Assembly (NCBI RefSeq): GCF_011799805.1
Contig: NZ_WXUB01000001.1
Span: 1,612,001 to 1,676,000 of the forward strand
DNA length: 64,000 bases
Direction of reading: 5' to 3'
Source of the DNA: Maribellus sediminis
GTDB lineage: Bacteria > Bacteroidota > Bacteroidia > Bacteroidales > Prolixibacteraceae
The notes under the pieces are model-generated. The model had not been told where the DNA came from and searched no databases. It worked only from the letters and a program-made list of their open reading frames with translations. Of the stretch, positions 38,312-64,000 are shown piece after piece. The first letter of the stretch is position 1. Every line of letters begins with the position of its first letter. A program made the position numbers and the translations under genes.

Positions 38312-38343
38312 AAAGCATATCCCTTGAAAAAGGGATATGCTTT
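38312..38343 (+). other. Perfect hairpin with GAAA tetraloop after susD
   Basis: AAAGCATATCCCTT (38312-38325) and AAGGGATATGCTTT (38330-38343) are perfect 14-base complements closed by a GAAA (GNRA) tetraloop, 23 bases after the susD stop. The T-tail is weak (TTTCATTT), so it may be a partial terminator or an mRNA-stabilising stem that sets susCD levels above those of the downstream enzymes. Confidence 0.8.
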
Positions 38344-38390
38344 CATTTCCTGCGAACAGAGTACATCAGTCAATAAAAAAATCCTATTTT

Positions 38391-38741
38391 ATGATTCAAT
38401 TTATTATGCTCAGTTGTATTACTTCCGGTATTCAGCATCAAAAAGGTACCCATCCGGGAGTGGCAGTTATTAAAGACAATTATAAACTGATCAAGTACTA
38501 CGAAGACAATTCTGAATACTTGTTTGATATGGATAAGGATCCTCAGGAGTTGAACAATATTGCTAATTTGAATCAGAAAATTCTCGAGGAGTTAAATCGG
38601 GATATCGACAGCTATTTTGAAACGCATGATATACAATTACCCACGCTAAATACAGATTACGATATTAGCAACGATCCGGGTAGAAACTATTTCGGAATTA
38701 AAGCGCAATTACTAAAAGAACCGTACTTTATCGTAAAGTAG
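38391..38741 (+). pseudogene. Sulfatase C-terminal remnant
   Basis: A 116-codon frame from ATG 38391 (a longer frame starts at 38337 inside the hairpin). From about residue 18 it reads like the last quarter of an S1 sulfatase: GTHPGVAVIKDNYKLIKYYE, then YLFDMDKDPQELNNIA, the standard end region where the product contacts the chain. The N-terminal 350 or so residues with the formylglycine and metal sites are missing. It is therefore a truncated gene and cannot be an active sulfatase. The remaining frame is intact, so the loss may be recent. Confidence 0.75.
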
Positions 38742-38936
38742 CATAGGGGTAAACTGCTTTAAAGCATTAAAATAGCTGGGTTCTGATGCTATTCTCCGCG
38801 ATGGAGTGTTTCCGGGGATTTTAGCAATAAATGTTGAAATCTGAACGAAAGTCCCCATGTCACGAAGATATTTGCTAACGAGAGCCAGTCGGTAGATGTA
38901 ATTTTGAAAGCTGTATAATATATAATCTAAACAAGT

Positions 38937-40343: not shown

Positions 40344-40474
40344 ATTGTAGGTTTTTGGTTGGGAGTTTGGTGGAAATCAAATTTCTGATTTATTAAATGA
40401 TTTTACCAGTTCTATAATTCAATATCCAGATAGAAATTTAAAACAAGAATAATTTTGCATAAACAATTTAAAAG

Positions 40475-42358: not shown

Positions 42359-42366
42359 TCTGATTC

Positions 42367-43773: not shown

Positions 43774-43814
43774 AAAGTAAAACTATAAACACGAGTCTAA
43801 ACCAATTAAAAAAA

Positions 43815-45461: not shown

Positions 45462-45472
45462 AAATCAAGGAT

Positions 45473-47719
45473 ATGATCTCAATAAACATAAATAAGGTTA
45501 TTGTACTGCTGATTTTACTGTCAGGCTTTTTTATGGCTTGCACTAAAAAAAATCATACGGAACAAGCTAAACAATGGAGCATCGAAAAAGCCAATTCATG
45601 GTACGATCAGTACCCGTTTCTTGTAGGTGGAAATTATGTGCCGGCCTCGGCCATCAACCAGCTGGAAATGTGGCAGGAAGATACTTTCGACCCGGATCGA
45701 ATTGATTTTGAATTGCGCCGGGCCTCAGAAATCGGTATGAATACCATGCGCGTATTTCTACACGATTTGGCATGGAAACAAGATAACGAAGGATTTTTTA
45801 ATCGGGTAGATCAGTTTCTGACGATTGCCGACAAACACGGAATTAAACCCATGTTTGTGATCTTTGACGGTGTTTGGAATCCGTATCCAAAAGCAGGGAA
45901 ACAACCGGAGCCGGTGCCACATGTGCACAATTCGGGCTGGGTGCAATCGCCCGGTCGAGAAATTTTAGAGAACTCCGAAAAACAGGACGAGCTAAAAGAA
46001 TACGTTCAGGCTGTTATTACAAGATATAAAGATGACGAACGGGTTTTGATTTGGGATTTGTTTAACGAACCCGATAATTCGAATGCCGGAAACTTTGGAG
46101 GTGGAAGTAAAGAGCAGGAAATGGCTCCGGAAGAAAAACTGGAGCGGGCACTGGAGCTGTTGCAGAAGGCATTTGCCTGGGCGCGCGAAATAAATCCTTC
46201 GCAACCTTTAACTGCAGGTGTTTGGGGAGCTCCAACCTGGTTACAAGAACCTGATTCCATAGAAAAATTCAGTCTCGAAAATTCGGATATTATCTCATTT
46301 CACAGTTATGATGGTCTGGAATCAACGCAGAAAATGGTTGATGGTCTGAAAAAATATAAGCGCCCGTTAATGTGTACCGAGTACATGGCCCGCACGGCAG
46401 GTTCAACATTTGAAGCCATTCTGCCCATCTTTCATAAAAACAGGGTGGCCGCTTACAACTGGGGTTTGTTTTCCGGTAAATCGCAAACCATTTATCCATG
46501 GGAATCGTGGACAAAAGAATATACCGCTGAACCGGAGCTCTGGTTTCACGATGTGTTTAGGGAAGATGGAACACCCTATGATAAGCAGGAAACAAGGTTA
46601 ATTCAACAATTATCGATAAGGCCGGTTACCGTTTTAAGCAAAACTCCGGCAGTAGCAAAACCCGACAACCGGGAAACAATAGAAGCCGGACTACAGGCAC
46701 ACGATAAATCGTTGTTTATAAAAGACGGCTGGATTCGTGATCCATATATTGTTACAAGTCCCGATGGCGACTACTACCTCACCGGAACAACTCCTTTAAA
46801 TGATGAGGATTGGGTGAATACCGACCCGTACAATTTGGGATTGGGCGACTATTCCTGCGTGGGCTGGAAGGCGCACATTTGGAAAAGCAAGGATTTAATC
46901 GACTGGGAACCGGTGGAAAATGCCTTTAGTTTAAAAGATGGTATTTGGGCAAAAACACATCCGGAAAGTTTTGAGGACACCGATTCTTCAAAATGGTTGT
47001 TGTGGGCACCCGAAATTCACTGGACAGGCGATCGCTGGGCTTTGGTTCATACCAGCCCTTTCCCGCAAAACGGGGCAAACCTGTCGCTTTCAAACGGTGC
47101 AGAACCTGTTGGCCCATGGGAAAATCCAATGGGAGAGAAGATTGGACGGCGACATGATCCATCTTTATTTAAAGACGACGATGAAAGCTGGTGGCTGATT
47201 TGGGGCGCTACACAAATTGCTAAATTAAAACCTGACTTTTCAGGTTTTGAAGGTGAACCAATAAGAATAGGACCTAGTGGTGACACTAAGAATATGGGCC
47301 ACGAAGGTTGCCTGATTATGAAAATTGATGGGAAATACGTGTTGTTTGGTACGGGCTGGTCAACAGGCCTGATGCGACGTGGAACCTATAATTTGTATTA
47401 TGCCGTAGCCGATAAAATTACCGGCCCATACAGCGAACGCAAATTTGTGGGACGTTTCCTCGGGCACGGAACGCCTTTCAAAACCAAAGACGGAAACTGG
47501 TGGTGTACTGCCTTTTTTAACGCCAATGTGCCGCCGCTTGATCCAGCAGGGATTGAAGATGACAATTTGATTTTTACAGCAGCTTCCATTAATCAGCGCG
47601 GAACTACAATTGTTCCTCTCGATGTTTTTACTAACGATGAAGGAGAACTGATTATCCGCGCAAAAGTTTCGGAATACGCAACTCGGGGACCGGACGAAGC
47701 ACAGAAATTTGATGAATAA
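45473..47719 (+). CDS. Two-enzyme fusion: GH5-like barrel plus GH43-like propeller, lipoprotein
   Basis: A 748-residue lipoprotein (lipobox FFMAC, Cys about 23). Residues 35-385 are a GH-A clan TIM barrel: acid/base E199 in WDLFNEPDNS and nucleophile E303 in LMCTEYMAR. Residues about 410-740 are a five-bladed propeller of the GH43 kind: base Asp in WIRDPYIV, second Asp in RRHDPSLF and acid Glu in GHEGCLIM. All five catalytic positions look intact. Such fusions can remove two linked sugars in turn. Substrate unknown; pentose or galactose side chains are plausible. Probably on the surface or periplasmic face. Confidence 0.87.
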   Translation: MISININKVIVLLILLSGFFMACTKKNHTEQAKQWSIEKANSWYDQYPFLVGGNYVPASAINQLEMWQEDTFDPDRIDFELRRASEIGMNTMRVFLHDLAWKQDNEGFFNRVDQFLTIADKHGIKPMFVIFDGVWNPYPKAGKQPEPVPHVHNSGWVQSPGREILENSEKQDELKEYVQAVITRYKDDERVLIWDLFNEPDNSNAGNFGGGSKEQEMAPEEKLERALELLQKAFAWAREINPSQPLTAGVWGAPTWLQEPDSIEKFSLENSDIISFHSYDGLESTQKMVDGLKKYKRPLMCTEYMARTAGSTFEAILPIFHKNRVAAYNWGLFSGKSQTIYPWESWTKEYTAEPELWFHDVFREDGTPYDKQETRLIQQLSIRPVTVLSKTPAVAKPDNRETIEAGLQAHDKSLFIKDGWIRDPYIVTSPDGDYYLTGTTPLNDEDWVNTDPYNLGLGDYSCVGWKAHIWKSKDLIDWEPVENAFSLKDGIWAKTHPESFEDTDSSKWLLWAPEIHWTGDRWALVHTSPFPQNGANLSLSNGAEPVGPWENPMGEKIGRRHDPSLFKDDDESWWLIWGATQIAKLKPDFSGFEGEPIRIGPSGDTKNMGHEGCLIMKIDGKYVLFGTGWSTGLMRRGTYNLYYAVADKITGPYSERKFVGRFLGHGTPFKTKDGNWWCTAFFNANVPPLDPAGIEDDNLIFTAASINQRGTTIVPLDVFTNDEGELIIRAKVSEYATRGPDEAQKFDE

Positions 47720-49121
47720 TATGAAGAACTGGTATTTACAAACAATAGTACTTCTCGCAATAGTTGCAGTTGGCAGCTTTGGGTCATTTGCCGGAAACGA
47801 AACCACTTCAAAGCCAAATATCATTATCATTCTTGCTGATGATCTTGGTTATGCTGATGTTGGTTTTCATGGAAGCGATATTAAAACACCACATATCGAT
47901 CGTATTGCAAGCGAAGGTGTGGTGCTTGAGCAGTATTACGCCTGCCCGATGTGTTCGCCAACCCGGGCCGGATTAATGACCGGCCGTTACCCCATTCGTT
48001 TCGGATTGATGCGCGCGGTTGTTCCGCCTCAACGTGTGTTTGGTATGCCACCCGAGGAAACAACCATTGCCGAAATGCTAAGCGAAGCAGGGTACAAATA
48101 CCGCGGTATAACCGGAAAGTGGCACCTTGGTCACCAGGAAAAGAAATGGACACCGGCCAACCAGGGGTTTACGTTTTTTGAAGGATGTCACAACGGTGCA
48201 GTCGATTATTTTACACAAGACAGAAACGGAGAACGGGATTGGCAGGAATTGGCCAAACCTTCGGAAAAGACTGGTTATACAACCGATTTAATTGGCAACG
48301 CTGCCGTTGAATTTATTCAATCTGTTCCAAAGGATGAACCTTTCTTTTTGTATGTGCCTTTTACGGCTCCTCATTCGCCGTTTCAAGCCAAAGATGAGGA
48401 TTTGAAAAAATATCCAAATCGGCAAGGAGACAAGAAAACTTATGCCGCCATGGTTGATTGTATGGATCAGAATATTGGAAGAATATTGGCCAGCATCGAA
48501 GATCGTGGACAGTTGGATAATACCTTCATATTGTTTTGCAGCGATAATGGTGGCGTTAAAAAGGTGGCCGATAATTCACCTCACCGTGGTTCAAAACTTA
48601 CTGTTTACGAAGGAGGAATAAATGTTGTTGCCGCAGTCAGGTGGCCGGCCGGAAATATTTCGGGTGGCAAAATAATTGAAGAGAGAGTTGGATACATTGA
48701 TGTATTTCCAACAATTGCCGGAATTGCCGGTTGCAATCAATTACCGGCTGAATTGGATGGGATAGATATGATAGAAGCACTACAAGGTGAAAAATTGCCG
48801 GATCGCACCTGGTTTACCTATCTCGACCAAGGCGGGGAGAAAGTGGAGCAGTTTGCCTTAAATACCGACGAGTGGAAGTTAATATGGCGACGTAATGCAG
48901 CTGATAGTTCGAGAGAACAAGAAAAAACCGAGCTGTACCGGATAGGTGAGGATCCTGGTGAAGTCGTTAATTTAAATACGGAACAAGAGGCAGTTGTCGA
49001 AAAGCTAAAAATGGAAATCGGTAATATTTATAAGTTAAAATCGAAAAATCAAATACCGAGATACGATGAAAAAGAAAAGCTTTCCGGTCCGGTCTTGCCA
49101 AACTGGTTTCCGGAAAATTAA
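47712..49121 (+). CDS. S1-family sulfatase (arylsulfatase B-like)
   Basis: A 469-residue sulfatase; ATG 47712 overlaps the stop of the fusion gene by eight bases (a second ATG at 47721 gives the same signal peptide). The Sec signal ends near GSFAGN. Metal ligands lie in ILADDLGYADVG and in CSDNGGVKK. The formylglycine cysteine is C81 in CSPTRAGLMTG; GKWHLGHQEKKW provides the sulfate-binding Lys and His. The downstream HRGSKLTVYEGG segment is typical of the arylsulfatase B-like branch. Periplasmic. Confidence 0.93.
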   Translation: MNNMKNWYLQTIVLLAIVAVGSFGSFAGNETTSKPNIIIILADDLGYADVGFHGSDIKTPHIDRIASEGVVLEQYYACPMCSPTRAGLMTGRYPIRFGLMRAVVPPQRVFGMPPEETTIAEMLSEAGYKYRGITGKWHLGHQEKKWTPANQGFTFFEGCHNGAVDYFTQDRNGERDWQELAKPSEKTGYTTDLIGNAAVEFIQSVPKDEPFFLYVPFTAPHSPFQAKDEDLKKYPNRQGDKKTYAAMVDCMDQNIGRILASIEDRGQLDNTFILFCSDNGGVKKVADNSPHRGSKLTVYEGGINVVAAVRWPAGNISGGKIIEERVGYIDVFPTIAGIAGCNQLPAELDGIDMIEALQGEKLPDRTWFTYLDQGGEKVEQFALNTDEWKLIWRRNAADSSREQEKTELYRIGEDPGEVVNLNTEQEAVVEKLKMEIGNIYKLKSKNQIPRYDEKEKLSGPVLPNWFPEN

Positions 49122-49210
49122 AACGCAGGACTTAGAAGATAAGGAGAGAGGAAAAGCAGTAAAGAGCAGATAGCTAAGAATAAAAATTTTTGTATAAACA
49201 GTATTACGAT

Positions 49211-50722
49211 ATGAAAAATCGAATTTATTTTATCATTGCACTGGTGTTGTTGGTAAGCAACGTAAAATACACTTTTGCACAGAAATCAGAAAAACCCAAT
49301 GTACTATTGATTTTGGTCGACGACTTGAAACCCAACCTGGGGGTTTATGGCGATGAAACCGCAAAAAGTCCGAATATCGATCGGCTGGCTTCAAAAGGAA
49401 TGACCTTTAAAAATGCTTATTGTAACCAGGCAGTTTGTATGGCATCGCGCTATAACTTATTACTTGGGGCCCGTTCAACCAGTACCGGAATTTTCAATTT
49501 TGGCACCCAGTTTCGCGAAGTATACCCTGATGCAGTTACTTTGCCTCAGTATTTTATGAATGCAGGTTACCACGTTGAATCGATGGGTAAGGTATTTCAT
49601 ATCGGGCACGGAAACGACAACGACGAAGCATCGTGGAGTATTCCTCACCACAAAGAAAAAGTAATTGAATACCTGGTTCCTGAAAGTACCAACAGAGAGT
49701 TAACCCGTGAAGAGGCTTATTTCCAAAACTCGGCAATGTTTATCGAAGATCTTCCTAAAAACTGGAAATTACCAAGAGGTGCAGCCTGGGAAAGCCCTGA
49801 TGTGCTGGACGAAGCGTATGCCGATGGACGTGTAGCAACACATGCTATTAACCGCTTGCGAAAATTGAGTAAAAATCCTGATCAGCCGTTTTTTATGGCC
49901 GTTGGATTTGCCCGTCCGCACCTGCCATTCTGTGCTCCTAAAAAATACTGGGATATGTATGATCCCAACGAACTACCTATGCCAGTAAACGAAGAGCAAC
50001 CCAAGGATGCACCTGAATGTGCCTTAAAACGAAGGGGCGAAATTGTTCAGTTTTTCCCGATTCCTGAACAGGAAACAGGGATTTATGATGACGACTTAAA
50101 GCGAAAGCTGATTCACGGTTATTATGCCAGTATGAGTTACATGGATGCTCAGCTGGGGCGCGTAGTTGAAGAGTTGGAACGTCTGGGCCTGGACGAAAAC
50201 ACCATCATTGTGTTATGGGGCGACCACGGCTGGCATTTGGGCGATCACGGAACATGGACAAAACATACGAACTTTGAACAGGCAACCCGAATTCCTATTG
50301 TTTATGTTGCTCCGGGTGTAACAACTCCGGGTACAAAAACCGACCAGTTAACTGAAACTGTTGATATTTACACCACTTTGGCTGACCTTGCAGGCCTTGG
50401 AAAACCAGATGTTCCGCAACCAATTGACGGAACCAGTTTGGTACCTGTTTTAAAAGATGGTACAAAGCGAGTGAAGGATCATGCCTATCATGCTTTTAAC
50501 AAAGGTGGCTATATGGGAGAAGCCATACGCACAGAGCAGTACCGTATGGTGCGCTGGACACCAATGAGAGATGCGAACAAAGAAGTTTTGTATGAGTTGT
50601 ACGACTACGTAAACGATCCGCATGAAACTCAAAACTGGGCAGCGCAAAAGCCTGAAAAGGTTGCTGAACTGGAACAGTTGTTAAACAGTCACCCAAAGGC
50701 AAAAACAAGGCCTGGGAAGTAG
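49211..50722 (+). CDS. Iduronate-2-sulfatase-like S1 sulfatase
   Basis: A 503-residue sulfatase starting at ATG 49211, where the signal peptide begins (ends KYTFAQ); the longer TTG-started frame is unlikely. Metal ligands are in LLILVDDLKPNLG and in LWGDHGWHLGDHG. The formylglycine cysteine is C76 in CMASRYNLLLG, the CxASR variant seen in iduronate-2-sulfatase relatives (S1_7-like). The RPHLPFCAPKKYWDMY segment is also characteristic of that branch. A 2-O-sulfated uronic acid or a related sugar is the likely target type, by family. 20 bases before the next gene. Confidence 0.93.
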   Translation: MKNRIYFIIALVLLVSNVKYTFAQKSEKPNVLLILVDDLKPNLGVYGDETAKSPNIDRLASKGMTFKNAYCNQAVCMASRYNLLLGARSTSTGIFNFGTQFREVYPDAVTLPQYFMNAGYHVESMGKVFHIGHGNDNDEASWSIPHHKEKVIEYLVPESTNRELTREEAYFQNSAMFIEDLPKNWKLPRGAAWESPDVLDEAYADGRVATHAINRLRKLSKNPDQPFFMAVGFARPHLPFCAPKKYWDMYDPNELPMPVNEEQPKDAPECALKRRGEIVQFFPIPEQETGIYDDDLKRKLIHGYYASMSYMDAQLGRVVEELERLGLDENTIIVLWGDHGWHLGDHGTWTKHTNFEQATRIPIVYVAPGVTTPGTKTDQLTETVDIYTTLADLAGLGKPDVPQPIDGTSLVPVLKDGTKRVKDHAYHAFNKGGYMGEAIRTEQYRMVRWTPMRDANKEVLYELYDYVNDPHETQNWAAQKPEKVAELEQLLNSHPKAKTRPGK

Positions 50723-50743
50723 AGTCAAATTAATCATCGAATT

Positions 50744-52183
50744 ATGAATCGAATAATTATTTTTCTATCAATAATTTTATCGTTTTGCTTTACAAATACC
50801 TTTGCCGGCAATGGTGTTCAGCAAAACAACGATAAAAAAACAAACATCCTTTTTGTCTTTATCGACGATATGGGCTTTGCCGATTTAGGATGTTATGGAC
50901 GAGAAGATGTTCATACGCCAAATATCGATCGTTTGGCGAGTGAGGGGATTTTATTTACCCAGTTTTATGTGAACTCGCCAATTTGTTCTCCATCGCGAAC
51001 AGCGGCTACAACCGGGCAATATCCGGCGCGTTGGGGAATAACTTCCTACATCGACAGCCGTAAAGCGAATGAAAACCGGGGAATGAAAAATTACCTCGAT
51101 TTGTCGGCTCCGTCGGTAGCCCGCAACATTCAGGCAGCAGGCTATTACACCGCACACATTGGCAAATGGCACATGGGTGGCGGACGCGATGTCGGTGAGG
51201 CTCCGTTAATTACGGAGTACGGTTTTGACGAATCGGTAACACAGTTTGAAGGTTTGGGCGAGCGTTTTCTGGCGACCTACGAAACGCTGAATCTTCCAGA
51301 CAGTACGCGCGGATTGGAAAAACAATCTGCCCGCTTGGGAAGGGGAGAAGTACATTGGGCAAAACGCGAGAATTTTACACAGATTTTTGTCGACCGCACC
51401 ATTGATGCCATTGAAAATGCACAAAAAGCGAACAAGCCTTTTTACATTAATCTTTGGCCCGATGATATCCATACGCCGCTTGAGCCGCCAAAAGAATTAC
51501 GTGGTGACCTATCAACAAAAGCACGGTTTTTGGGTGTGATGCAAGAGATCGACAAACACATGGGCCGACTTTTTGATTACATTCGAAGTAATCCGCAACT
51601 CCGCGATAATACGCTGATAATTTTTACCAGCGATAATGGTCCCGACAAAGCAGTGAACACAGCAGGACCATTTCGTGGCTACAAAACAGTGCTGTACGAA
51701 GGCGGATTCCGTGAACCGTTTATCAGCTGGTGGCCGGGTAAAATTTCAGAGAAGAAAGCGGGCACAAAGAACACTAAAACGGTAATGGCCGCAATCGATC
51801 TTCCTTTGGTATTTATGGAAATTGCGGGAGCCACTCCGGATGAAAATGTAACATACGATGGCGAGTTGATGCTGGATGCCATTTCTGGGAAAAAACAACA
51901 AAAAAGATCAAAACCGATTTTTTGGATTCGCCCACCGGATCGCCCGGGGTATGAAGGAACCCGAGCGCCGGATTTGGCTGTTCGAAAAGGAGATTACAAG
52001 TTGCTGATGAATTTCGATGGATCGAATGTTCAGCTGTATAACCTTGAAAAAGACATGGGCGAAACACAGAACTTAAAAGATAAGGAACCCGGCAAAGCTG
52101 CCGAGTTAAAAAAAGAGCTGGAAGAATGGTTTAACACCTATCCGTTAGACATTGATTTAACAAAGTTCTCCTTTAAAAAATGA
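50744..52183 (+). CDS. S1-family sulfatase (arylsulfatase A-like)
   Basis: A 479-residue sulfatase with a Sec signal peptide (ends NTFAGN). Metal ligands lie in FIDDMGFADLG and in FTSDNGPDK. The formylglycine cysteine is C81 in CSPSRTAATTG, the classic CxPSR motif. GKWHMGGGRD supplies the sulfate-binding Lys/His, and YKTVLYEGGFREPF follows. It ends in LDIDLTKFSFKK. Its stop overlaps the next start in ATGA fashion, so the next gene is translationally coupled to it. Periplasmic. Confidence 0.93.
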   Translation: MNRIIIFLSIILSFCFTNTFAGNGVQQNNDKKTNILFVFIDDMGFADLGCYGREDVHTPNIDRLASEGILFTQFYVNSPICSPSRTAATTGQYPARWGITSYIDSRKANENRGMKNYLDLSAPSVARNIQAAGYYTAHIGKWHMGGGRDVGEAPLITEYGFDESVTQFEGLGERFLATYETLNLPDSTRGLEKQSARLGRGEVHWAKRENFTQIFVDRTIDAIENAQKANKPFYINLWPDDIHTPLEPPKELRGDLSTKARFLGVMQEIDKHMGRLFDYIRSNPQLRDNTLIIFTSDNGPDKAVNTAGPFRGYKTVLYEGGFREPFISWWPGKISEKKAGTKNTKTVMAAIDLPLVFMEIAGATPDENVTYDGELMLDAISGKKQQKRSKPIFWIRPPDRPGYEGTRAPDLAVRKGDYKLLMNFDGSNVQLYNLEKDMGETQNLKDKEPGKAAELKKELEEWFNTYPLDIDLTKFSFKK

Positions 52184-53256
52184 TGAATAATACCCTTAAA
52201 TTCCTGGTGTTTCTGTTAGCTTCATTTTGTTTTGTTGCTTGTGCGCACAACAATAGCAAGAAGCAAAATGATGTTCCGGCACCTCTTTTTGTAGATCCAA
52301 ACTATCAGGGATCCTGCGACCCGGAGATCGTTTGGAACGAACACGAACAGCAGTGGTACATTTATTATACAGCCCGTCGTCCGATGCTGGAAAATACCTG
52401 GCTGCAAACACCAATTGGGGTGGCTGTTTCAAAAGACATGATAAACTGGGAATTTAAGGGTTATTGCAAATTTGATGGTGTAGGCGGTGAAAAAAATGCA
52501 GCATCAACATTTTGGGCGCCTGCAATTATTTCGGCCACCGATACTTTGCACATGTTTGTAACCTGGAAACCCGACACCATCCCAACTCAGGGTGCCTGGG
52601 GTGGGCAGGGGTGGATTGTGCATTATAAAACACCTCTTACGAACCCTGTTGATGGCTGGCAAAAGGTAAGTGCCTTGCATGGCGATAACCTGAATACAAT
52701 CGATGCTACCGTTTACCAAAGTAAAAATCAGTATCACGTTTGGTTTAAAGGAAAGGAACAGGGAGCAAAGAAAAATGAGCTCTACCATTTAACCACTTCC
52801 GATTTTACAAACTGGCAAAAAGCCGGCTTTTCAAAAAGCGATGTATTTAATGCCGAAGCAACCGGATCCAATTTCGAGGAGGCTCCTTATATTTTTCAGT
52901 GGAAAGGGAAGTATTGGTTGATTACCGATCCGCACAACGGCTTTTTTGTATACAGTTCTGCCGATGCCGAAAACTGGAAATTTCAGGGTACGATATTAAA
53001 AGAAGGTGGCACACGAAATTTGGATAATTCGATGGCGCGGCATTGCAGCGTTGCAGTAAAAGACGGCCGGGCTTTTATTTTTTATCATGTGGAACCCTGG
53101 CGGCGTTACGATCTCGAAAAACTAAAAGGCGAGGGGAGAAAACGGATTTTCGATCAGCCATTAAAAAACAGGGAAAGTGTGCTGCAAATGGCAGAGCTGG
53201 AAATAGTTAACGGCCAATTGATTTGTAACAGAAATAAAAGAGTAGAATTGGAATAA
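52180..53256 (+). CDS. GH43-like five-bladed propeller glycosidase, lipoprotein
   Basis: A 358-residue lipoprotein (lipobox CFVAC, Cys 21). It is a clan GH-F propeller: general base Asp in QGSCDPEIVWNE, pKa-modulating Asp in NTIDATVYQS, and general acid Glu in NFEEAPYIFQWKG. Blade repeats such as QWYIYYTAR and KYWLITDP are seen. GH43 enzymes release arabinose, xylose or galactose; GH117-type anhydro-galactosidases have a related fold, so the substrate is not certain. It is coupled by a four-base overlap to the preceding sulfatase, suggesting that the sugar it releases was sulfated. Confidence 0.85.
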   Translation: MMNNTLKFLVFLLASFCFVACAHNNSKKQNDVPAPLFVDPNYQGSCDPEIVWNEHEQQWYIYYTARRPMLENTWLQTPIGVAVSKDMINWEFKGYCKFDGVGGEKNAASTFWAPAIISATDTLHMFVTWKPDTIPTQGAWGGQGWIVHYKTPLTNPVDGWQKVSALHGDNLNTIDATVYQSKNQYHVWFKGKEQGAKKNELYHLTTSDFTNWQKAGFSKSDVFNAEATGSNFEEAPYIFQWKGKYWLITDPHNGFFVYSSADAENWKFQGTILKEGGTRNLDNSMARHCSVAVKDGRAFIFYHVEPWRRYDLEKLKGEGRKRIFDQPLKNRESVLQMAELEIVNGQLICNRNKRVELE

Positions 53257-55205: not shown

Positions 55206-55440
55206 ATTGGTGTTTTATCCAATATCTTTAATCGAAAAGGCTAAAAAAGTGTAGAAAGGAGCAACAATTTATTTAGGTTGAGAGCATTTCTGCGTGATGT
55301 TCAATTAGCTTAATAATGGCAGTACAACCCTAACAGCTTTGTCAAAAATCCGTGTATCCCTGCATTGGTGCTTCCTTTAGGAATGGAACTATTTATTAGT
55401 TATTTATGGTCTTTTTTTGATGACAATTTTGTGCAAATAA
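55206..55440. other. Short AT-rich spacer, nothing recognised
   Basis: About 235 bases between the last sulfatase and the terminator. No coding frame, hairpin or repeat was convincing. Confidence 0.4.
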
Positions 55441-55485
55441 AAAGGGCTCACAACTTAATTCGGTTGTGAACCCTTTCGTTTTTTT
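55441..55485 (+). terminator. Strong terminator at the end of the PUL
   Basis: AAAGGG-TCACAAC (55441-55454) pairs with GTTGTGA-CCCTTT (55463-55476), one mismatch in 14 positions, then CG and seven T. It closes the sulfatase transcript. The arms begin with A and end with T, so some action on the other strand is possible. Confidence 0.88.
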
Positions 55486-55488
55486 CAG

Positions 55489-55528
55489 TAGCGAGAGGCG
55501 GGCTTGAACCGCCGACCCCCTGATTACA
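55489..55528 (-). other. tRNA-Thr-like 3' half, probable integration scar
   Basis: The minus strand shows the 3' part of a tRNA: anticodon-like TGT at 55528-55526, AATCAG of the anticodon stem, GGGGTC as variable-loop region, T-arm GGCGG-TTCAAGC-CCGCC, then TCTCGCT as the acceptor 3' strand and A as discriminator (55489). The 5' half (D arm, acceptor 5' strand, first anticodon strand) is absent; the sequence diverges exactly at the anticodon. This is the pattern left when an integrase crosses over in a tRNA anticodon loop. It is not a functional tRNA. Confidence 0.65.
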
Positions 55529-55691
55529 TGTCATAATATTTAAAGAGCATAGCCCACGCAGTATGAAAGTTGAATATGTTTTCTATTTTATTCAACGATA
55601 CAGCCGAATAAATCCACTTAATTTCTGTGTGTCCAATACTCTTTATACACCAGCTTGATTCAATATTTAATCCGAAATAACTTTTCTATAG
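55529..55691. other. Spacer after the tRNA fragment
   Basis: AT-rich, without coding frame. Lies downstream of the 112-residue gene that reads toward it; nothing else recognised. Confidence 0.4.
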
Positions 55692-56030
55692 TTATGCTTT
55701 TAACATCGAAATCTGTCTGTCAATGAGGCTTTTCCAGTCTTTTGGAAATTGTACTTTAATAGTGTAATAAGAATTCTCATGCCCAAAGAAGATGTCTTTA
55801 CTAAATAATCCGAACCACTTGCGTATGTTTAATGAATGAATCTGAGCAAGATTAAAAGTCTCCAAAATCCTGCCTTCCTCATTCGCAAAGAATAATTTTT
55901 TCTTAGTTAAAATTAATTTTCCCCTTGTTTTGCTTTTGATAGTAACCAGTTTGCAGTCGGTCTCAATCTCAATCACGATCCTTTCGTTGATTAGCTGTTC
56001 TGTGATAACCATTTTATTTAGTTTAGCCAT
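55692..56030 (-). CDS. Small protein with GRAM/PH-like fold
   Basis: A 112-residue soluble protein. The central strands GKLILTKKKLFFANEEG and HSLNIRKWFGLF look like the start of a GRAM or bacterial-PH domain, in which a first strand pair is followed by a conserved aromatic loop; a final helix (WKSLIDRQISML) fits too. No signal peptide. It lies 11 bases after the subtilisin gene in transcription order and may be cotranscribed. Function unknown; the fold call is a pattern judgement. Confidence 0.6.
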   Translation of the reverse strand: MAKLNKMVITEQLINERIVIEIETDCKLVTIKSKTRGKLILTKKKLFFANEEGRILETFNLAQIHSLNIRKWFGLFSKDIFFGHENSYYTIKVQFPKDWKSLIDRQISMLKA

Positions 56031-56041
56031 AGCACTATTTT

Positions 56042-59000
56042 TTACTTGATCACAAATTTGCCGGCTTCAAAACTTTCGTCGTCCTTAATCAGCCTGCATA
56101 TGTACATGCCGGAAACATATCCCCCAAGTTCTAATTCGTGTTGATATTCACCGGAGGTCAAATTCCCCAAATCAACAGACTGCACTTTTATCCCGGTAGC
56201 GTTGTAAATCTCGATCCTGGTATTCGAATCGTTTTCAAGTCGGAAAACAAGGTTCGTGCGTCCATTCGTAACCGGGTTTGGATAGATATTCATCGTTTGC
56301 TCCGAACTGAGTTTTATATCCGGATTATTCCTGTTACCGTAAGGGCTTGCTTTTACTGCATCCGGGTCGTCGAAAACCTGTACATATACATAGCTATATA
56401 CAAAGCCATCTTCTTTGCCATCGTCGGCCGCAAAAATCAGTACGGCAGTTCCCTCCATTATCGGGTAAAGTCCGATGTAAACCGTTCCAAAAGCCATGTC
56501 CACAATTTCCGGATTATAGTTTCCGGCATAGGTCTGTAATTCATCTCCATCCGGATCGGTGAATAATTCGGCCGGGTCGATGGTAAACGGATTTGGATCA
56601 GACAGGTTTAGTTCAATGTTTTCGAAGTCGGTATTAAAAACAGGTGGCCTGTTCTTATTCTCAACTTCCAGTAATACTGTGTCAGCAGAAACGTTCCCGG
56701 CTGCATCGGTAACAAACACCGGGATTTTGTAGAACCCTTCACTTTCGTAATTGGTATTTACAGTCAACTGAGCGGTGTTGTTCGAAGTTTGATTGGATGT
56801 AAGTTCTATACCATCTTCAAACTGCCCGGTTTCAAAAGTCATGGATTCTCCTTCATTATCTTTAAACAGGTAATTCAGAACAGTCTCTTCAGTTTCTGTC
56901 ACTCTTAAAGTATCCTTGTAAATGTTTGGGAAATATTCAAAATCAGGTGCTCCATTTACTCTCAGTTCAATATTGAACTCATCACTCGATCTATTCACAT
57001 CGTTGCTTGTTGCTAAAACTTTTGCGATGTGTTCGCCTGCTCGGGCCAATTTTGCATCAACCATGGCTTTTATTGCCACCGACTCGCCGGAATTTACTTC
57101 GCCACCTAAATTATCCAGCGACAACCAGGCGCCATCTCCGGCAGCTGTAACTGCTCTCATCTTCCAAACCCGGGTATCACTGGGGGGTTCATTTTTAATC
57201 CAGTAGAATGTGTCTTCGGGTCGAATTAATCCCGTAAAATTACGTGGTACTATATCTAGATCGTTGGCTAGCTCAAATCCAAAATAGCGAAAGCTAGGTG
57301 GTTGTACAATGATGATATAGAAATCTTCTCCTTCAGGAATTTGAATACCCTGTTCCAAAGGAATATTAATCCATTGCTGGTCGATAGTACGATCAATAAC
57401 ATATTTTTGTTCGTACAGTTTTTCACCTGCCGTAGGATCTTCTCCTCCAAGGTAAACCATCAGCCTTAGGTATTCGTTAACAGCGGTTAAATATTCGAAT
57501 GCCCTGACATGAGTAAGGAAGAATCCTCCGCTTGGTGCAGTTAAACGAGAGGCAAATGCCAGGTCGCCCATTTCAATCATAGGAGTGAAAACACCGTCAG
57601 CAGGTTCTTTTGTATCCAATGCGACTTCGCGTACAGAAGCCAGTTGGTCGGTATTGAAATTCCCGATTTCATCAACAATAAGCGGAAGTTCTATATCTCC
57701 GCCTTCGGGTATAATCGTTGGCAATAAATCGTACGTTAAAATTCCGGGACCATCATTTTTTATTGAAAATCTATACTCCTGAATGTCATCACTATTGGCG
57801 TTAAATACCTGATCGGTAGCGGTCCATGCAAATACCGGAGAATCGACCGGTTTTGCCAGGATACGGATATTGGTAGTTTCTGAATCACCTGCAAATCGAA
57901 TCATTCCATTTACATCGTTTTGTGTCTTTACCGGAATTTCAAGTTTTAGTACAAATTCATCCCACGGATTGATTGTAATAGGATTTAACAAGGTACCGGA
58001 ACTGTTTTTGATAATCTTGTCGCCATTTGAATCATAAAGCAGCAAATCATCCAAACCTTCACCTTTTATAGATATAATGGTTAACGGATCCGATCCGGGA
58101 TTATTCAGTTTTATGGTCTCGTTTAAAGTAAGGTCCTGTGTGAAAATAACATCTCCCCAGTTTAATGTATCAGGGGCACTTAATTCAGGCTTGCCCGTTA
58201 CATTTACTTGTACCGGAATAGTGTACTTTGACTGAGAATCGCTGTTGCTGTATAAAACCACAGTATCGCGGTAGGTGCCGCTTTTGTATATTCTTTCGGC
58301 TGAAATTTCAAGATCGAAGTTTTTGTTTTCGCCACTTGAAATTTTATTTCGGAGCGGAGGAATAAATGCCAGTGAACTTTTGTCGGAAAGAATGGACCAG
58401 TCCAATATCCACGATCTTGTTGTTTCCACTGTTTCCTCTTCATCGGGGCTTTCCAAACCGTAATTTAACACGCCTTGCCATCCCGATACTTTTTTATAGT
58501 GGAAATAGATGGATCCATCGGCCTGCATTTCCAACTGAAAAGTCAGTTTTCCGGGTGATATTGACGACTCAACTGCCTGAAACTGGTTCCATTGAAGTAT
58601 AACTCTGGAGTCTTCTGTTCTTAGTCGAACTCCATCACCTTCAATCGAAGGAACTATATTTTCTGACCAAAACGGAGCTATAACCCCGGCAAATCCGTCT
58701 CCCTTCTCAAAATCCAAACGATAATCGTCCGACTCGGGTTCCACAACCGCGACATAACCATTTTTTGAAATCCAGATGGTATCGTACATTTTGCCAAAAA
58801 ACGGGAATTCAAAAGGTAAGGGCAGCATGTACTGCTCACCTTGTTCTATTATTAACACCTCTGAGCTATCATTGATGTCTTCCCATTTATAGAATGGCCT
58901 TTCTTCACCGCTCTTGCCCCACCAGTATCCGAATTTCGAATCGACATCTACTGAGTTTGTACTTCCGCCTCTCTTCTGTCCTTCGGCATTTATCCAGGAG

Positions 59001-62000
59001 AACCAGTTGTTTGCAAAAGTAGAATGCAGGTCAATGTTTTTGGGTAAGTTTTCAAGAGACAGGGGAACAGTTTTGTGTTCACCGGCAAGCAGGTCAACTA
59101 CAATATTGTCCGGAACTGAAATAGTATACGAAGGATCCTCGAACGCATTTGCCACTAACACCACTGATTTTTGTGTTCCGTTATCAAAAGTAATGTTCAT
59201 TGTCCCGGTAAGCTCACCTGTTGCAGAGGGAGTAAACGTTAGAGGAATTTGAACTTTAGAATTGGCACCCAATGCATAAGGAAGACTTAATTGGCTTGAA
59301 AATTCAGCTTGGCTGAAGCTAACAGATTTGATCTTAACTTCAGATGTTCCCTGGTTTGTAATTTTTGCAAATGAATTTGAAGCAAATCCAAGCTTAACTG
59401 GATTGAACAGTGCGCTGTCAATTGATAAAATCTCAGGTGTTCCGGTTACTTTAATTATCAAGGGATAGTATTCATATCCGTTTACAGTATTTGTTTTAAC
59501 CACGAACGGATTGTTGTAAACACCTTCATACGCATTAACCATTTCAGGATTGATGGTTAATTCGATATTTTTTGAAGTTTCGGTGTTTACTATTCCGTCT
59601 CTTGAATTGGCTGATACAATCATATTAATCCCGGCATCGGGTTCAAACCGGATTACCTGGCCGCTGTATAATTTGTTGGTTGAACCAAAATCCTTAAACA
59701 ATAAAAGTTGCTCACGTGTGAGGCCCTGAATAGCAACAGTATAATCCATTTCCTCAGTAATAGCCTCCAGGTTTTTGTAGCGGAATTCAATAGCTCCATT
59801 GCGGAACAAAACTATCTGGTAGTCGATAATCCCAGCAGAAACAGAACCCGATTGACCGGGATCTATGATGTCTGCTGATACCGTAAATACACTATGATCG
59901 CCAAAAGAATACTGCTGTAATTCGCGTATTTTTAAGTAGTGATCCTTTATCCGTATTGGAATGAAAAGCCCTTTTGAAAAACCATAAACGTCGGCTTCGG
60001 GATCGTTTCCTAAAAGTCCATCGTAATAAAGAAACAGTTGGCCACGCAGATTGGCATAAATTATCTCAGGCATTTCGTTAAAAAATGGAAATTTCATTGC
60101 CAGATCCATTGTGGCTTCCTTTATATCCGTGTTTCCGTATTTATTCGAATAGGCTGAAATATCTTCCCATTGATTATCCTCCGGCCCTCCTACATCCTGC
60201 GAGGTGAGTATTTCGTAATGAAAGGTGTATGGTAAGATCCCGTTTGTACTGTTTATAATCGAATAATGAGATAAATCGTATTCAAGTGCTGTAGAAGAAC
60301 TATTGTTTTTTAGTTGAACATCTACCTTCCTGATTTCGTTATAAGCAAGTTCTATAGTATCAATCGCTGTTGAAATTTCCAGCTCAGGAGACTCAGTTAC
60401 CGTAAATTCTGTAGGTAATTCAATGGTTCCGATATTGGTTTCCAGTATTAGCCTGGTTTGAATCAAGCCGGTATTATCGGGAGTGTATTTAAATGGTATA
60501 AAGCTTTTAAATGAGGGGCCAATAACCACACTGTCTGTAAAATTCTTTTCCACTCCGTCAACAACCGCAGATATATTGTAAATTTCAAGGTCGGCCAATC
60601 CTTTATTGGTGATTTCAAATTCCAGTTTATTTTCGCTTTGATTGTAGGCTTTGAAAGCATAAACTTCCTTGTTTTCAACTTCTGGTTGCTGTCCGCTAAC
60701 ATCTACTTTAACCTCGATGTTTACAACCGGTTTATGAATATCATTGGTAAGAATACCCAGTGAAGCAAGGTGCTTCCCATTGGTAAGGTTTGTTGCATCG
60801 ATAACCACTTCCTGTGTTGTGGTTTGTTTGCTGGCAATTTCGCCGTTGTTCGGATTCATAAATACATACGAACCGTCGTCTCCTGTGCTCAAGGCAGCGA
60901 GCATTGGCACTACCATTCTGGAAAATGCGAAATAAGCGTTTTGAAAAGTTAGCCCATTGTTTTTCGACATTAAAAAGTAATTAAAGAAGTCGGGATTTCC
61001 ACCAAACTGAACAGCCAGAGGATAAGCCATTTCTTTTGGGAAATGCAGTACTACCCAAAGAATTTCATTGTCTTCAAATTTTTGCGGGCGATAAATAGGC
61101 ATTAGAAAATATTTCAACACATTGGTTGTATCCGGATAATATTCCTGTAAATAAACAGTCTCCGCTTCTTCCACACGTTTCGACCCTTTTTTTAGCTCTA
61201 TTATAATGGGTTTGTCTTTAATGGTGGGGAATAGAGCAACCGCCAGATGGGTCATATTAAATTTATAATCATAAGGGATATCGAAACGGGTAGCAAATAT
61301 CAGGCCTGCGTTTGTGTTTCCCGAACCCATAAGGTTATCCGGATAACCTGAAGCAGTCTCATAAGATAGTCCATATTTAAACTGTGTATCATCGTTTCGC
61401 CAGTGTTCAAGTTCGGCAGGAACAGAAGTGGCAGATTTTAAGGACTGATAAGGCAGGGCGTAAGATCTTGAACTGGAAAAATCACTTTCGTTAGCGGCAG
61501 CTTCTGCTTTTTTCTCGTCAATTTGAGTTTGAAGTTCTTCTGCAGTTTCCTGGTAATAGGTTTCGTTTTCAATAGAAGTGTTCCAGTAAATAATACCATC
61601 GCCAATATTTGAAAAATTGATGGGTACCTTTTTTATTGTCTCGCTATTTACATCGATGCTAACATCCACTAAACGTGTGGACTCCATAAAGTGCGGTAAA
61701 TCGGATGTTTTAACATGAAGGATATTGGAAATATCGGATAAATTATCGAACTGATCAGCCGATTTTACAGCAAACCAATAATTGCTTTGCTTTTGAAAGC
61801 CGGTAATATTAATATTGAAAGTATCGCCGGCACTCAACTCATTTTCTAATACAAAATAGCCAAATTCGTCAAAATTCTTTTCCGTAATTTCAGAAGAGCC
61901 AATTGCCAGGTAATAATAACGCGGTTCGCCGTTATCCTCATCTGCCGGAACGGTCCATTCCAGTCTTATTTCACTATGAAATATTTCGGAAGCATGTAAA

Positions 62001-63568
62001 TCGGTAATGGCATCGGGTGAAATACGGTTATCATCGGCAAGAGCATTAACAGCATTTAATATACCTGTTCCGTATTTTCCTTCGTGAACAAAAGTGAATC
62101 TTTTGGTCGAGTTCAGAATAATACGGGTAAGATCGTCAGCTGTAAAATCTTCGCCACCAAATTTCGACAGTACCAGCGCTGCCACACCCGATACATGCGG
62201 ACATGCCATTGATGTTCCTTCCATATAGCCGTACTGGTCGTTGGGCAGTGTACTTAAGATGCCTGCTTTTTCTCCATAATTTGTTGCATCGCCACCAGGA
62301 GCTGCAATGTCGGCCCATTCGCCACGATTGGAATAGGGTGCCGGGTAACCTTCGGGGCCAAATGCAGTTACCGCAACTACTTCGTCAAATGCTGCAGGGT
62401 AGCGTAATGCATCTTCAAGTCCTTCGTTTCCCGCCGCAAAGAATAATACCCCACCTTTCATCGGGCTACCTTCGTATTGCCCGGCTTCGGCTACAAAATA
62501 CCGGATAGCATCCAGTACTTCCGGCTCGTAATAATTTGTTGTATTATAACCCCATGAATTTTGGGAAATTACAGCTCCGTTGTCGGCTCCATATACAATA
62601 GCTGCTGCAAAATTACCTCCGTTAAAAGACCTGTTGTCAAATACCTGGCACGAGATCATTTTTACTCCGTTTCCATTGCCATCTCCACCGGCAACACCCG
62701 ATACACCAATCCCGTTATTTGATACTGCACCAACGGTTCCGGCCACGTGCGTCCCGTGATCGCCTATGGAGAGTGCGCCATCCATTACGAAGTTATATCC
62801 GTGATAATCATCGATATATCCGTTCTGGTCGTCGTCAACACCTTCAACCCCGTTAATTTCAGCTTCGTTGTTCCAAATATTTTTTTTCAGGTCTTCGTGC
62901 TCAACATCAACTCCCTGGTCAACAATGGCAACAATAATATCTGAATTCCCGCTTGTTTGTTCCCAGGCCCCAAACAGATCTATGTCAACCGTATTTTCAA
63001 CAATGCTTCCGTTACTCTCGTAGTGCCACTGGTCAATCAATAGCGGGTCATTAAAAAAAGGTATATATGAATCCTGGCTTTGAGCCGATTTAACCGTGGT
63101 ATTTTTACTAACTACCTCAACATTGTATGGAACCGCTTTCTTATCCTGATCAATGCTTACTTTTTTGTAAACAGGCTTTGCATATTCCAACTCGCTTAAT
63201 CCTGTGTATTTATCAGCTACACTGCGCGGATCAATCGTTGGATCAAATTCAAGTTCAACCCAAAGGTGCAGGCCATATTCGCGGTGTTTGGCTTCATGTT
63301 TTGGCGAAAAGGGAAACACCCTTCTTAACCGTTGAATACCAACTTCCCTGCTCACCTGGTCAATACCCGGAACGCCAAGTTCAGAACCTTCAACTTCGGT
63401 GGAAAGCGTGGTTAAAAGATTCACACTTTTAAGTTGACTTTCTTTCAGTTTAATCCTTATCAGTCCTTCTACACAATCTTCCTGCTGAAGCTCGGTTGTT
63501 TGTCCGAAGACTGAACTAACTGCCACCAGCCAGGCGATAACTAAAAGGAATATTATCTTATTGCTCAT
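56042..63568 (-). CDS. Giant secreted subtilisin-family (S8) protease with T9SS tail
   Basis: A 2508-residue protein; the start at 63568 begins the signal peptide (NKIIFLLVIAWLVAVSSVFGQ). The S8 triad is complete: D217 in VDQGVDVEHED, H271 in GDHGTHVAGT and S453 in GTSMACPHVSG. An FN3-like domain follows (about 510-600; FHSEIRLEWTVPADED). A very long tail holds ASH/HYDIN-like beta-domains (GKPELSAPDTLNWGDVIF; GTPEILSIDSALFNPVKLG), cadherin-like repeats and a type A T9SS sorting domain (NIYPNPVTNGRTN, ending EAGKFVIK). It acts on the cell surface or is released. It stands 51 bases after the FISUMP gene. Confidence 0.92.
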   Translation of the reverse strand: MSNKIIFLLVIAWLVAVSSVFGQTTELQQEDCVEGLIRIKLKESQLKSVNLLTTLSTEVEGSELGVPGIDQVSREVGIQRLRRVFPFSPKHEAKHREYGLHLWVELEFDPTIDPRSVADKYTGLSELEYAKPVYKKVSIDQDKKAVPYNVEVVSKNTTVKSAQSQDSYIPFFNDPLLIDQWHYESNGSIVENTVDIDLFGAWEQTSGNSDIIVAIVDQGVDVEHEDLKKNIWNNEAEINGVEGVDDDQNGYIDDYHGYNFVMDGALSIGDHGTHVAGTVGAVSNNGIGVSGVAGGDGNGNGVKMISCQVFDNRSFNGGNFAAAIVYGADNGAVISQNSWGYNTTNYYEPEVLDAIRYFVAEAGQYEGSPMKGGVLFFAAGNEGLEDALRYPAAFDEVVAVTAFGPEGYPAPYSNRGEWADIAAPGGDATNYGEKAGILSTLPNDQYGYMEGTSMACPHVSGVAALVLSKFGGEDFTADDLTRIILNSTKRFTFVHEGKYGTGILNAVNALADDNRISPDAITDLHASEIFHSEIRLEWTVPADEDNGEPRYYYLAIGSSEITEKNFDEFGYFVLENELSAGDTFNINITGFQKQSNYWFAVKSADQFDNLSDISNILHVKTSDLPHFMESTRLVDVSIDVNSETIKKVPINFSNIGDGIIYWNTSIENETYYQETAEELQTQIDEKKAEAAANESDFSSSRSYALPYQSLKSATSVPAELEHWRNDDTQFKYGLSYETASGYPDNLMGSGNTNAGLIFATRFDIPYDYKFNMTHLAVALFPTIKDKPIIIELKKGSKRVEEAETVYLQEYYPDTTNVLKYFLMPIYRPQKFEDNEILWVVLHFPKEMAYPLAVQFGGNPDFFNYFLMSKNNGLTFQNAYFAFSRMVVPMLAALSTGDDGSYVFMNPNNGEIASKQTTTQEVVIDATNLTNGKHLASLGILTNDIHKPVVNIEVKVDVSGQQPEVENKEVYAFKAYNQSENKLEFEITNKGLADLEIYNISAVVDGVEKNFTDSVVIGPSFKSFIPFKYTPDNTGLIQTRLILETNIGTIELPTEFTVTESPELEISTAIDTIELAYNEIRKVDVQLKNNSSSTALEYDLSHYSIINSTNGILPYTFHYEILTSQDVGGPEDNQWEDISAYSNKYGNTDIKEATMDLAMKFPFFNEMPEIIYANLRGQLFLYYDGLLGNDPEADVYGFSKGLFIPIRIKDHYLKIRELQQYSFGDHSVFTVSADIIDPGQSGSVSAGIIDYQIVLFRNGAIEFRYKNLEAITEEMDYTVAIQGLTREQLLLFKDFGSTNKLYSGQVIRFEPDAGINMIVSANSRDGIVNTETSKNIELTINPEMVNAYEGVYNNPFVVKTNTVNGYEYYPLIIKVTGTPEILSIDSALFNPVKLGFASNSFAKITNQGTSEVKIKSVSFSQAEFSSQLSLPYALGANSKVQIPLTFTPSATGELTGTMNITFDNGTQKSVVLVANAFEDPSYTISVPDNIVVDLLAGEHKTVPLSLENLPKNIDLHSTFANNWFSWINAEGQKRGGSTNSVDVDSKFGYWWGKSGEERPFYKWEDINDSSEVLIIEQGEQYMLPLPFEFPFFGKMYDTIWISKNGYVAVVEPESDDYRLDFEKGDGFAGVIAPFWSENIVPSIEGDGVRLRTEDSRVILQWNQFQAVESSISPGKLTFQLEMQADGSIYFHYKKVSGWQGVLNYGLESPDEEETVETTRSWILDWSILSDKSSLAFIPPLRNKISSGENKNFDLEISAERIYKSGTYRDTVVLYSNSDSQSKYTIPVQVNVTGKPELSAPDTLNWGDVIFTQDLTLNETIKLNNPGSDPLTIISIKGEGLDDLLLYDSNGDKIIKNSSGTLLNPITINPWDEFVLKLEIPVKTQNDVNGMIRFAGDSETTNIRILAKPVDSPVFAWTATDQVFNANSDDIQEYRFSIKNDGPGILTYDLLPTIIPEGGDIELPLIVDEIGNFNTDQLASVREVALDTKEPADGVFTPMIEMGDLAFASRLTAPSGGFFLTHVRAFEYLTAVNEYLRLMVYLGGEDPTAGEKLYEQKYVIDRTIDQQWINIPLEQGIQIPEGEDFYIIIVQPPSFRYFGFELANDLDIVPRNFTGLIRPEDTFYWIKNEPPSDTRVWKMRAVTAAGDGAWLSLDNLGGEVNSGESVAIKAMVDAKLARAGEHIAKVLATSNDVNRSSDEFNIELRVNGAPDFEYFPNIYKDTLRVTETEETVLNYLFKDNEGESMTFETGQFEDGIELTSNQTSNNTAQLTVNTNYESEGFYKIPVFVTDAAGNVSADTVLLEVENKNRPPVFNTDFENIELNLSDPNPFTIDPAELFTDPDGDELQTYAGNYNPEIVDMAFGTVYIGLYPIMEGTAVLIFAADDGKEDGFVYSYVYVQVFDDPDAVKASPYGNRNNPDIKLSSEQTMNIYPNPVTNGRTNLVFRLENDSNTRIEIYNATGIKVQSVDLGNLTSGEYQHELELGGYVSGMYICRLIKDDESFEAGKFVIK

Positions 63569-63619
63569 TTTTATTTGATTCTGAGATTTTATTTTATCGA
63601 TTGCAATAATTTGCATGTA

Positions 63620-64000
63620 CTAATTCTCTTCCGCTATATCTCGTACATAACGGACAGACAGGGCGTAAAAATCTACCGGTAAAGAACTCAATGTCGGTTG
63701 AGATGCACCGGGCGAAACTTCAACCATGCTGGCATATCTGTATGTTTCACTATAATCTTTAAACCAAAATAAACCGTAATTATCCAGTTGATTACTCACA
63801 TTTCTGTATGCAGGGTCGGCAGAACTCGATTTTTCTATGTAACCCGCCAGGTTTAATTCGAGGCCGGTTTCTCCTCCTTCAAGAATATCGTCGAGGGCAT
63901 ATAATGGCCCACCTAAAGAGTTAACCAGCTCGCTGAATTCTTCTACCGAAGGCAAACGCCATCCATCGGGAGCCTGGTAGTTTGCTGCTTGCCAGGAATA
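63620..64000 (-). CDS. FISUMP-domain protein, 5' end outside the window
   Basis: The frame runs off the right edge, so only the C-terminal 126 residues are seen. They read APDGWRLPSVEEFSELVNSL, then LELNLAGYI, YGLFWFKDYSET and end in SVRYVRD, the layout of the Fibrobacter succinogenes major paralogous (FISUMP) domain (LPSxxEF, G--WSS, SVRCVRD). The domain is common in secreted Bacteroidota proteins; function unknown. Related in C-terminal architecture to the protein at 14122. It is immediately upstream of the giant protease and perhaps cotranscribed. Confidence 0.82.
   Translation of the reverse strand, partial: YSWQAANYQAPDGWRLPSVEEFSELVNSLGGPLYALDDILEGGETGLELNLAGYIEKSSSADPAYRNVSNQLDNYGLFWFKDYSETYRYASMVEVSPGASQPTLSSLPVDFYALSVRYVRDIAEEN

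Follow-up and report, generated by a model that had tools for sequence, protein, structure and literature searches.

A displaced tRNA-Met 3' fragment as the probable left end of a 60 kb island at a tRNA-Met hotspot in Maribellus sediminis

The window, that is, the whole stretch of DNA analysed here, comprises 64,000 bases (G000:C5:1612001-1676000) of the Maribellus sediminis genome (G000; 5.6 Mb in 13 contigs). It carries, from left to right, a backbone gene of the maeB type, a segment holding a sulfatase PUL (segment A), a fragment of a tRNA gene (hereafter the stub), and the first genes of a second segment that runs on beyond the window (segment B). The features are listed in Table 1. The stub (55489-55528) is a real 3' tRNA part that is read from the minus strand, and ARAGORN detected no intact tRNA gene in the whole window.

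Table 1. Features of the window around the tRNA-Met stub (positions are those of the window).
Feature	Position	Strand	Basis or remark
Malic enzyme-phosphotransacetylase (maeB type), backbone	24873-27152	-	Adjoins tRNA-Met at the empty site of G011 (244 bp)
Segment A (28.2 kb), maeB to stub, holds the sulfatase PUL	27153-55373		No tRNA stub at its left end
Sulfatase PUL (ECF sigma, FecR, SusC, SusD, GH2, GH43, sulfatases)	30407-55205	+	Gene content
Part of the PUL (14.8 kb) 95.0% identical to G002 (C1:2538002-2552783)	38410-53204	+	Sequence comparison
Left copy of the ~150 bp direct repeat (3' flank, arm-like repeat, hairpin, tRNA-Met 3' part)	55374-55526		Right copy at C5:1727809-1727969, 60.4 kb away
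Arm-site-like repeat TTTTGTGCAAATA	55427-55439		Doubled beside the intact tRNA-Met; at both ends of the G002 element
Bidirectional terminator-like hairpin of the tRNA-Met repeat	55441-55476		Fold; same hairpin at the intact copy
T-arm/acceptor 3' part of tRNA-Met(CAT)	55489-55517	-	29 bases identical to intact gene G000:C5:1727929-1728005
24-base core GACCCCCTGATTACATGTCATAAT at the broken end	55514-55537	+	Four other loci in 37 genomes (0-2 mismatches)
Left end of segment B (60.2 kb), on past the window to C5:1727742	55567-64000		Collinear in D. aestuarii
First ORF of segment B, 112 aa	55692-56030	-	No Pfam family
Secreted subtilase, 2524 aa (Peptidase_S8, Por sorting domain), second gene of segment B	56042-63616	-	97% identical in D. 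aestuarii

An earlier note on this DNA had described the stub as the 3' half of a tRNA-Thr gene that kept its anticodon TGT. The presence of a 3' tRNA part was borne out by the perfect match to the T-arm and acceptor of an intact gene; its assignment to tRNA-Thr was not. When the 171 bases around the fragment were compared with the genome itself by BLAST, one strong second copy was found (C5:1727874-1727969; 97 bases, 92%, E = 1.1e-32), and at this copy ARAGORN predicts an intact tRNA-Met with anticodon CAT on the minus strand, 60.4 kb to the right of the stub and outside the window. This tRNA-Met was the best match in the genome, and no Thr gene was among the matches. The intact gene and the second copy of the end that the note had proposed to look for therefore both exist, but the gene is tRNA-Met and not tRNA-Thr, and the stub is a displaced 3' part of the tRNA-Met(CAT) gene. 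Uninterrupted identity to tRNA-Met stops at 55517, in the variable loop, while an alignment with mismatches can be extended to 55526; after GACC, the stub has CCCTGATTACATGTCATAAT and the intact tRNA-Met has TCATGATTATGAATCATG. The TGT at the anticodon position is an accident, as it belongs to the 24-base core, which recurs elsewhere.

The repeated sequence is not limited to the 40 bases first reported, since local alignment extends it to a direct repeat of ~150 bp with its right copy next to and within the intact tRNA-Met. Within it, TTTTGTGCAAATA is a candidate arm-type binding site. The hairpin folds well on both strands (-18.2 kcal/mol, z -4.8, on the plus strand; -22.4, z -6.4, on the minus strand); it adjoins the intact tRNA-Met copy and is present in relatives too. 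It had been taken for the terminator of the PUL, a reading that does not hold as a PUL-specific one: as the hairpin lies in the repeat at both copies, it is the tRNA's own 3' flank. Because it folds on both strands, it may also end PUL transcripts. Double repeats of the TTTGTGCAAAT/TTTGCACA type were also seen at G000:C5:589194-589223 and C5:468153-468177, downstream of tRNA-Gln and of a second CAT-anticodon tRNA, which suggests further integration sites there.

The site was compared with 36 other genomes of the genus (37 with G000), in which variable DNA follows tRNA-Met. An empty site is found in G011, where maeB is separated by 244 bp from tRNA-Met, itself followed by START-like and LptF/G-like genes; the same two genes follow tRNA-Met in G000, where the distance from maeB to tRNA-Met is 88.7 kb and is split by the stub into segments A and B. 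Five relatives (G007, G034, G018, G032, and G002) carry a tRNA-Met 3' stub whose order and orientation relative to the intact gene are those of G000, at a distance of 15-43 kb. In all five, the gene for a tyrosine integrase of 409-450 aa lies within 80-180 bp of the stub, and the cargo and then the intact tRNA-Met come after it. These integrases contain Phage_integrase, SAM_5, and usually Arm-DNA-bind_5 domains and read into the element. In alignment, the five canonical stubs match tRNA-Met as far as ...GATTATGAAT(C), which is their point of divergence; the break in the G000 stub differs from theirs. The tRNA-Met interval of G002 also encodes MobC, a MobA-type relaxase, and two fructan PULs, so that in this genome a mobility module is joined to cargo at tRNA-Met. 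Three further genomes (G009, G026, and G031) have cargo at the hotspot without any stub; thus, another insertion route also works there. In G031 (C1:4446001-4464000), a different sulfatase PUL of 10.7 kb lies directly between maeB and tRNA-Met, with neither stub nor integrase.

Segment B encodes the subtilase, SusC/D, CoA-transferase/enoyl-CoA hydratase, amidohydrolase, and porin proteins, among others listed in Table 1. A scan of named genomes with the subtilase returned a single locus, in Draconibacterium aestuarii Z1-6 (G007), and the segment proved collinear with contig C4:93682-158736 of that genome, at 92.0% nucleotide identity over 60,165 aligned bases. The backbone of the two genomes around maeB and tRNA-Met is 69-79% identical over aligned stretches. 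Homology starts at 55567, 39 bases past the stub, and stops at C5:1727742, ~110 bases before the right repeat. Only G000 and G007 (2/37 genomes) have the segment. When three of its genes were tested across the genus, the first was found in these two genomes only (97%); the second, present at 95% in G007, had no other match than one of 55% in G026; and the last segment-B gene (AraC-type) had a 94% copy in G007 alone, all other matches being at or below 53%. The G007 locus has no tRNA, stub, att sites, or integrase, while the tRNA-Met of G007 carries a different, integrase-bearing element. Its distribution (2/37) and its identity (92.0% against 69-79% for the backbone) single segment B out as a horizontal block. 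On the grounds of this patchy distribution, this identity, and the different element at the G007 tRNA-Met, segment B is a discrete unit that was recently exchanged between species. As it is discrete, shared with D. aestuarii, and has its edges at the stub and the repeat, the stub marks a horizontally acquired island. The view of the stub as an att-site remnant and a boundary, put forward in the earlier note, is thus upheld by the D. aestuarii synteny together with the succession of stub and integrase in the five relatives. As att sites and integrase are absent from the D. aestuarii copy, an autonomous version of the element was not seen.

As the earlier note had remarked, no integrase is visible. 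Across the 88.7 kb that separate maeB from tRNA-Met, none was detected by a Phage_integrase family search, by tblastn, or by a Pfam scan of most segment-B ORFs (all but a few, including one 589-aa ORF and some amidohydrolase copies). The Pfam scan was added because the family search of the genome had missed at least one SAM-like integrase (C5:1734336-1735580, beside tRNA-Trp). Nor was a degenerate integrase detected in the 88.7 kb, as tblastn with the integrases of the five relatives gave no match below E = 0.1 (best E ~0.16). At the tRNA-Trp locus itself (G000:C5:1734141-1735580), the tRNA gene is followed by a 414-aa SAM-like integrase with no Phage_integrase match and by restriction-modification genes, as judged from ORF sequence only. 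Lying 6 kb from tRNA-Met, this locus probably forms a further island.

The stub separates segment B from the sulfatase PUL. A 14.8 kb part of this PUL is 95.0% identical to G002, its left part (sigma/FecR/SusC/SusD) is only 72% identical, with a mosaic junction inside the PUL, and the matching PUL of G002 sits ~270 kb from tRNA-Met; the PUL is therefore a mosaic with a recent exchange of its own, independent of the stub. At the mosaic junction, ~1.1 kb is absent from G000 relative to G002, and a 134-aa remnant of a sulfatase C-terminus (38337-38741 of the window) is found where G002 has a full ORF of 489 aa. A second stub was searched for at the maeB end of the PUL segment, and none was found. 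The PUL was considered as cargo of a stub-bounded island and rejected, since it lies outside the repeats. It borders the stub on the chromosomal side, as neighbouring accreted DNA that is older or was added separately. Of the proposal that the stub bounds an island carrying or adjoining the sulfatase locus, the adjacency stands, as the PUL adjoins the stub at the same hotspot, but it is the sequence rightward of the stub, and not the PUL, that forms the island. At the equivalent place in D. aestuarii, a tRNA-Met stub occurs and a PUL does not, so the stub belongs to the hotspot rather than to the PUL, which in part goes against the link first drawn between the two.

The 24-base core at the broken end recurs at C6:433742 of G000 and once each in G002, G003, and G005; G002 also has two weak matches with three mismatches. 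A reversed control pattern had no matches, and in an order-wide sample of 393 genomes (including one other of the genus) the core was matched only in G000. All four of these other loci (4/4) are junctions between a mobility module and a PUL. In G002, G003, and G005, the core lies directly after the relaxase gene and before a fructan PUL, with the same flanks. The C6 core separates an integrase-bearing module (integrase at 440954-442228) from a 46 kb cargo of carbohydrate and SusC/D-type genes. A tRNA-Met 3' half (387247-387356) lies at the far end of this cargo, beside tRNA-Leu(cag). The whole forms a 55 kb island (G000:C6:387055-442430) that runs from tRNA-Leu(cag) to a degenerate tRNA-Leu 3' half, which the integrase adjoins, and that holds both the tRNA-Met 3' half and the core. 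Also on C6, within 91165-107254, only 3 bases lie between the end of a fructan PUL (G000:C6:91165-107191; 89% identity to the one in G002) and a further tRNA-Met 3' piece. A degenerate tRNA-Met 3' piece at G000:C10:122851-122923 lies ~100 bp after tRNA-Leu(gag), in an arrangement that resembles the tRNA-Leu(cag) site.

Besides the stub, G000 has three more clear tRNA-Met 3' pieces. Scattered copies had been named as a sign of an ordinary repeat, and such copies do occur, but at least two of them sit at the ends of PUL cargo, so they are not an ordinary repeat. Two are found at the far ends of the C6:387 kb and C6:107 kb cargo; tRNA-Met 3' pieces thus tag cargo ends. The idea that the core is the end of one particular element was weakened, as the C6 integrase is distant (~19% over 166 aa with the best relative integrase) and both flanks are kept in G002, G003, and G005. 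A bolder reading, to which we give little credence, is that the core could be a shared docking site where mobility modules with unrelated integrases gain or release cargo modules (PUL or metabolic), each of which ends in a tRNA-Met 3' half, the PULs of this genus then being exchangeable cassettes. Consistent with it are three unrelated contexts in which the core marks the junction of module and cargo (the window; C6:433742, beside a different integrase; and G002/G003/G005, after the relaxase), as well as the tRNA-Met 3' halves at the far ends of the two C6 cargo segments.

Taken together, these observations make it probable, at roughly 87%, that the stub is the attL remnant of a 60 kb island, segment B, inserted at a tRNA-Met hotspot that is flanked by maeB on one side and by the intact tRNA-Met and lptG-like genes on the other. 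In support of this are the direct repeat and the intact tRNA-Met 60.4 kb away in the required order and orientation, the empty site in G011, the five integrase-bearing relatives, and the transfer of segment B as one block. A tyrosine integrase would have acted in the anticodon arm of tRNA-Met, and we infer this action for G000 itself. The incoming element would have brought its own copy of the tRNA 3' end, the arm-like sites, and the terminator, rebuilding a working tRNA-Met at the right end and pushing the old 3' end to the left end. The integrase would then have been lost, leaving an island with att sites only. As no integrase was found, we call the island CIME-like (CIME, cis-mobilizable element), a class that segment B appears to fit on gene content.

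The route of this loss might be specified further, in a way that refines the reading as an attL remnant and does not oppose it. An integrase-relaxase module may once have lain between the stub and segment B and have been removed by recombination between the stub (GACCTCATGATTA) and an internal core (GACCTCCTGATTACATGTCATAAT), while the cargo stayed. The stub is indeed a hybrid, with tRNA-Met T-arm sequence to GACC and then CCTGATTACATGTCATAAT, and G002 displays the proposed earlier layout (stub, integrase, relaxase, core, PUL cargo, tRNA-Met). We nevertheless hold this route to have less than an even chance, as the neighbours of the core are the same on both sides in G002, G003, and G005, which does not require the core to be an active site; its position 5 reads C in the window and T elsewhere; and no genome has segment B and the module together. 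It is rather unlikely that homologous recombination between tRNA-Met 3' repeats or flanking genes, and not site-specific integration, brought segment B. Such recombination would fit the several tRNA-Met 3' pieces of G000, the stubless cargo in G009, G026, and G031, and the report that integrase-free hotspots are common and that core genes beside hotspots recombine more (PMC5635113), but such repeats are absent from the ends of segment B in D. aestuarii, and in G000 its edges match the repeats to within 39 and ~110 bases. That the stub is an ordinary repeat or a chance tRNA-like sequence, unrelated to mobility, is highly improbable: pieces of tRNA-Met 3' sequence are scattered in the genome, but the strength of the match (E = 1e-32), the synteny break at the stub, and the layout of stub, integrase, and tRNA in five relatives contradict it, as do the other pieces at PUL cargo ends.

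With segment B read as the island, the locus provides a precisely delimited 60 kb metabolic island and a tRNA-Met hotspot that takes up PULs and catabolic blocks in related species. The tRNA-Met 3' pieces could be used as tags for moved PULs and offer a way to trace the exchange of polysaccharide-degradation genes among Bacteroidota. If the shared core were active, it would explain the movement of PULs without an integrase inside the island. Our literature search returned no paper combining PUL, ICE, and tRNA. The kind of island is an ordinary and known one, and this is a clear, recent example in a chromosome of the Draconibacterium group. What is new is a clear exchange across species bounded by tRNA repeats, together with a recurring core of putative function.

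Several known systems can be compared with this locus. Islander describes a tDNA-bounded island as an intact tRNA gene and a displaced fragment, with an integrase required inside (PMC4383910). In G000, the intact tRNA and the fragment are both on the minus strand, with the fragment 60.4 kb downstream (range 2-200 kb), and the empty site in G011 is a supporting feature; the ends and their orientation, the sublocation in the anticodon arm, and the size of 60 kb are the same. Segment B lacks an integrase, so the island would fail the Islander filter. The five canonical stubs, which diverge after the tRNA-Met sequence given above, bear the signature of anticodon-arm islands as in Islander (PMC4383910). 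A CIME keeps attL and attR, carries genes for neither integration nor transfer, and can be mobilized through accretion with an ICE or IME (PMC5704250, citing Pavlovic et al. 2004). Our island has att-like ends, the stub and the intact-tRNA repeat being candidates for attL and attR, although the core of the putative attL differs from the canonical stubs. Like a CIME, it has no recognised integration, conjugation, or transfer genes, and it sits in a hotspot that also holds an IME with integrase and relaxase. The cited CIME examples are streptococcal; here, att activity and mobilization in cis are putative, and no full-length parent with an integrase was found.

The closest counterpart within the genus is the tRNA-Met element of G002, which has the same target tRNA, the same order (stub, core, cargo, arm-like repeats, tRNA-Met), and PUL-type cargo. 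It differs in having an integrase, MobC, and a relaxase between the stub and the core, and in carrying two fructan PULs in place of segment B. Finally, the integrase-free hotspots of Oliveira et al. 2017 (PMC5635113) share with this site variable cargo between conserved genes (here maeB and the lptG-like gene), often without mobility genes; unlike at those hotspots, two tRNA repeats bound the transferred block here.
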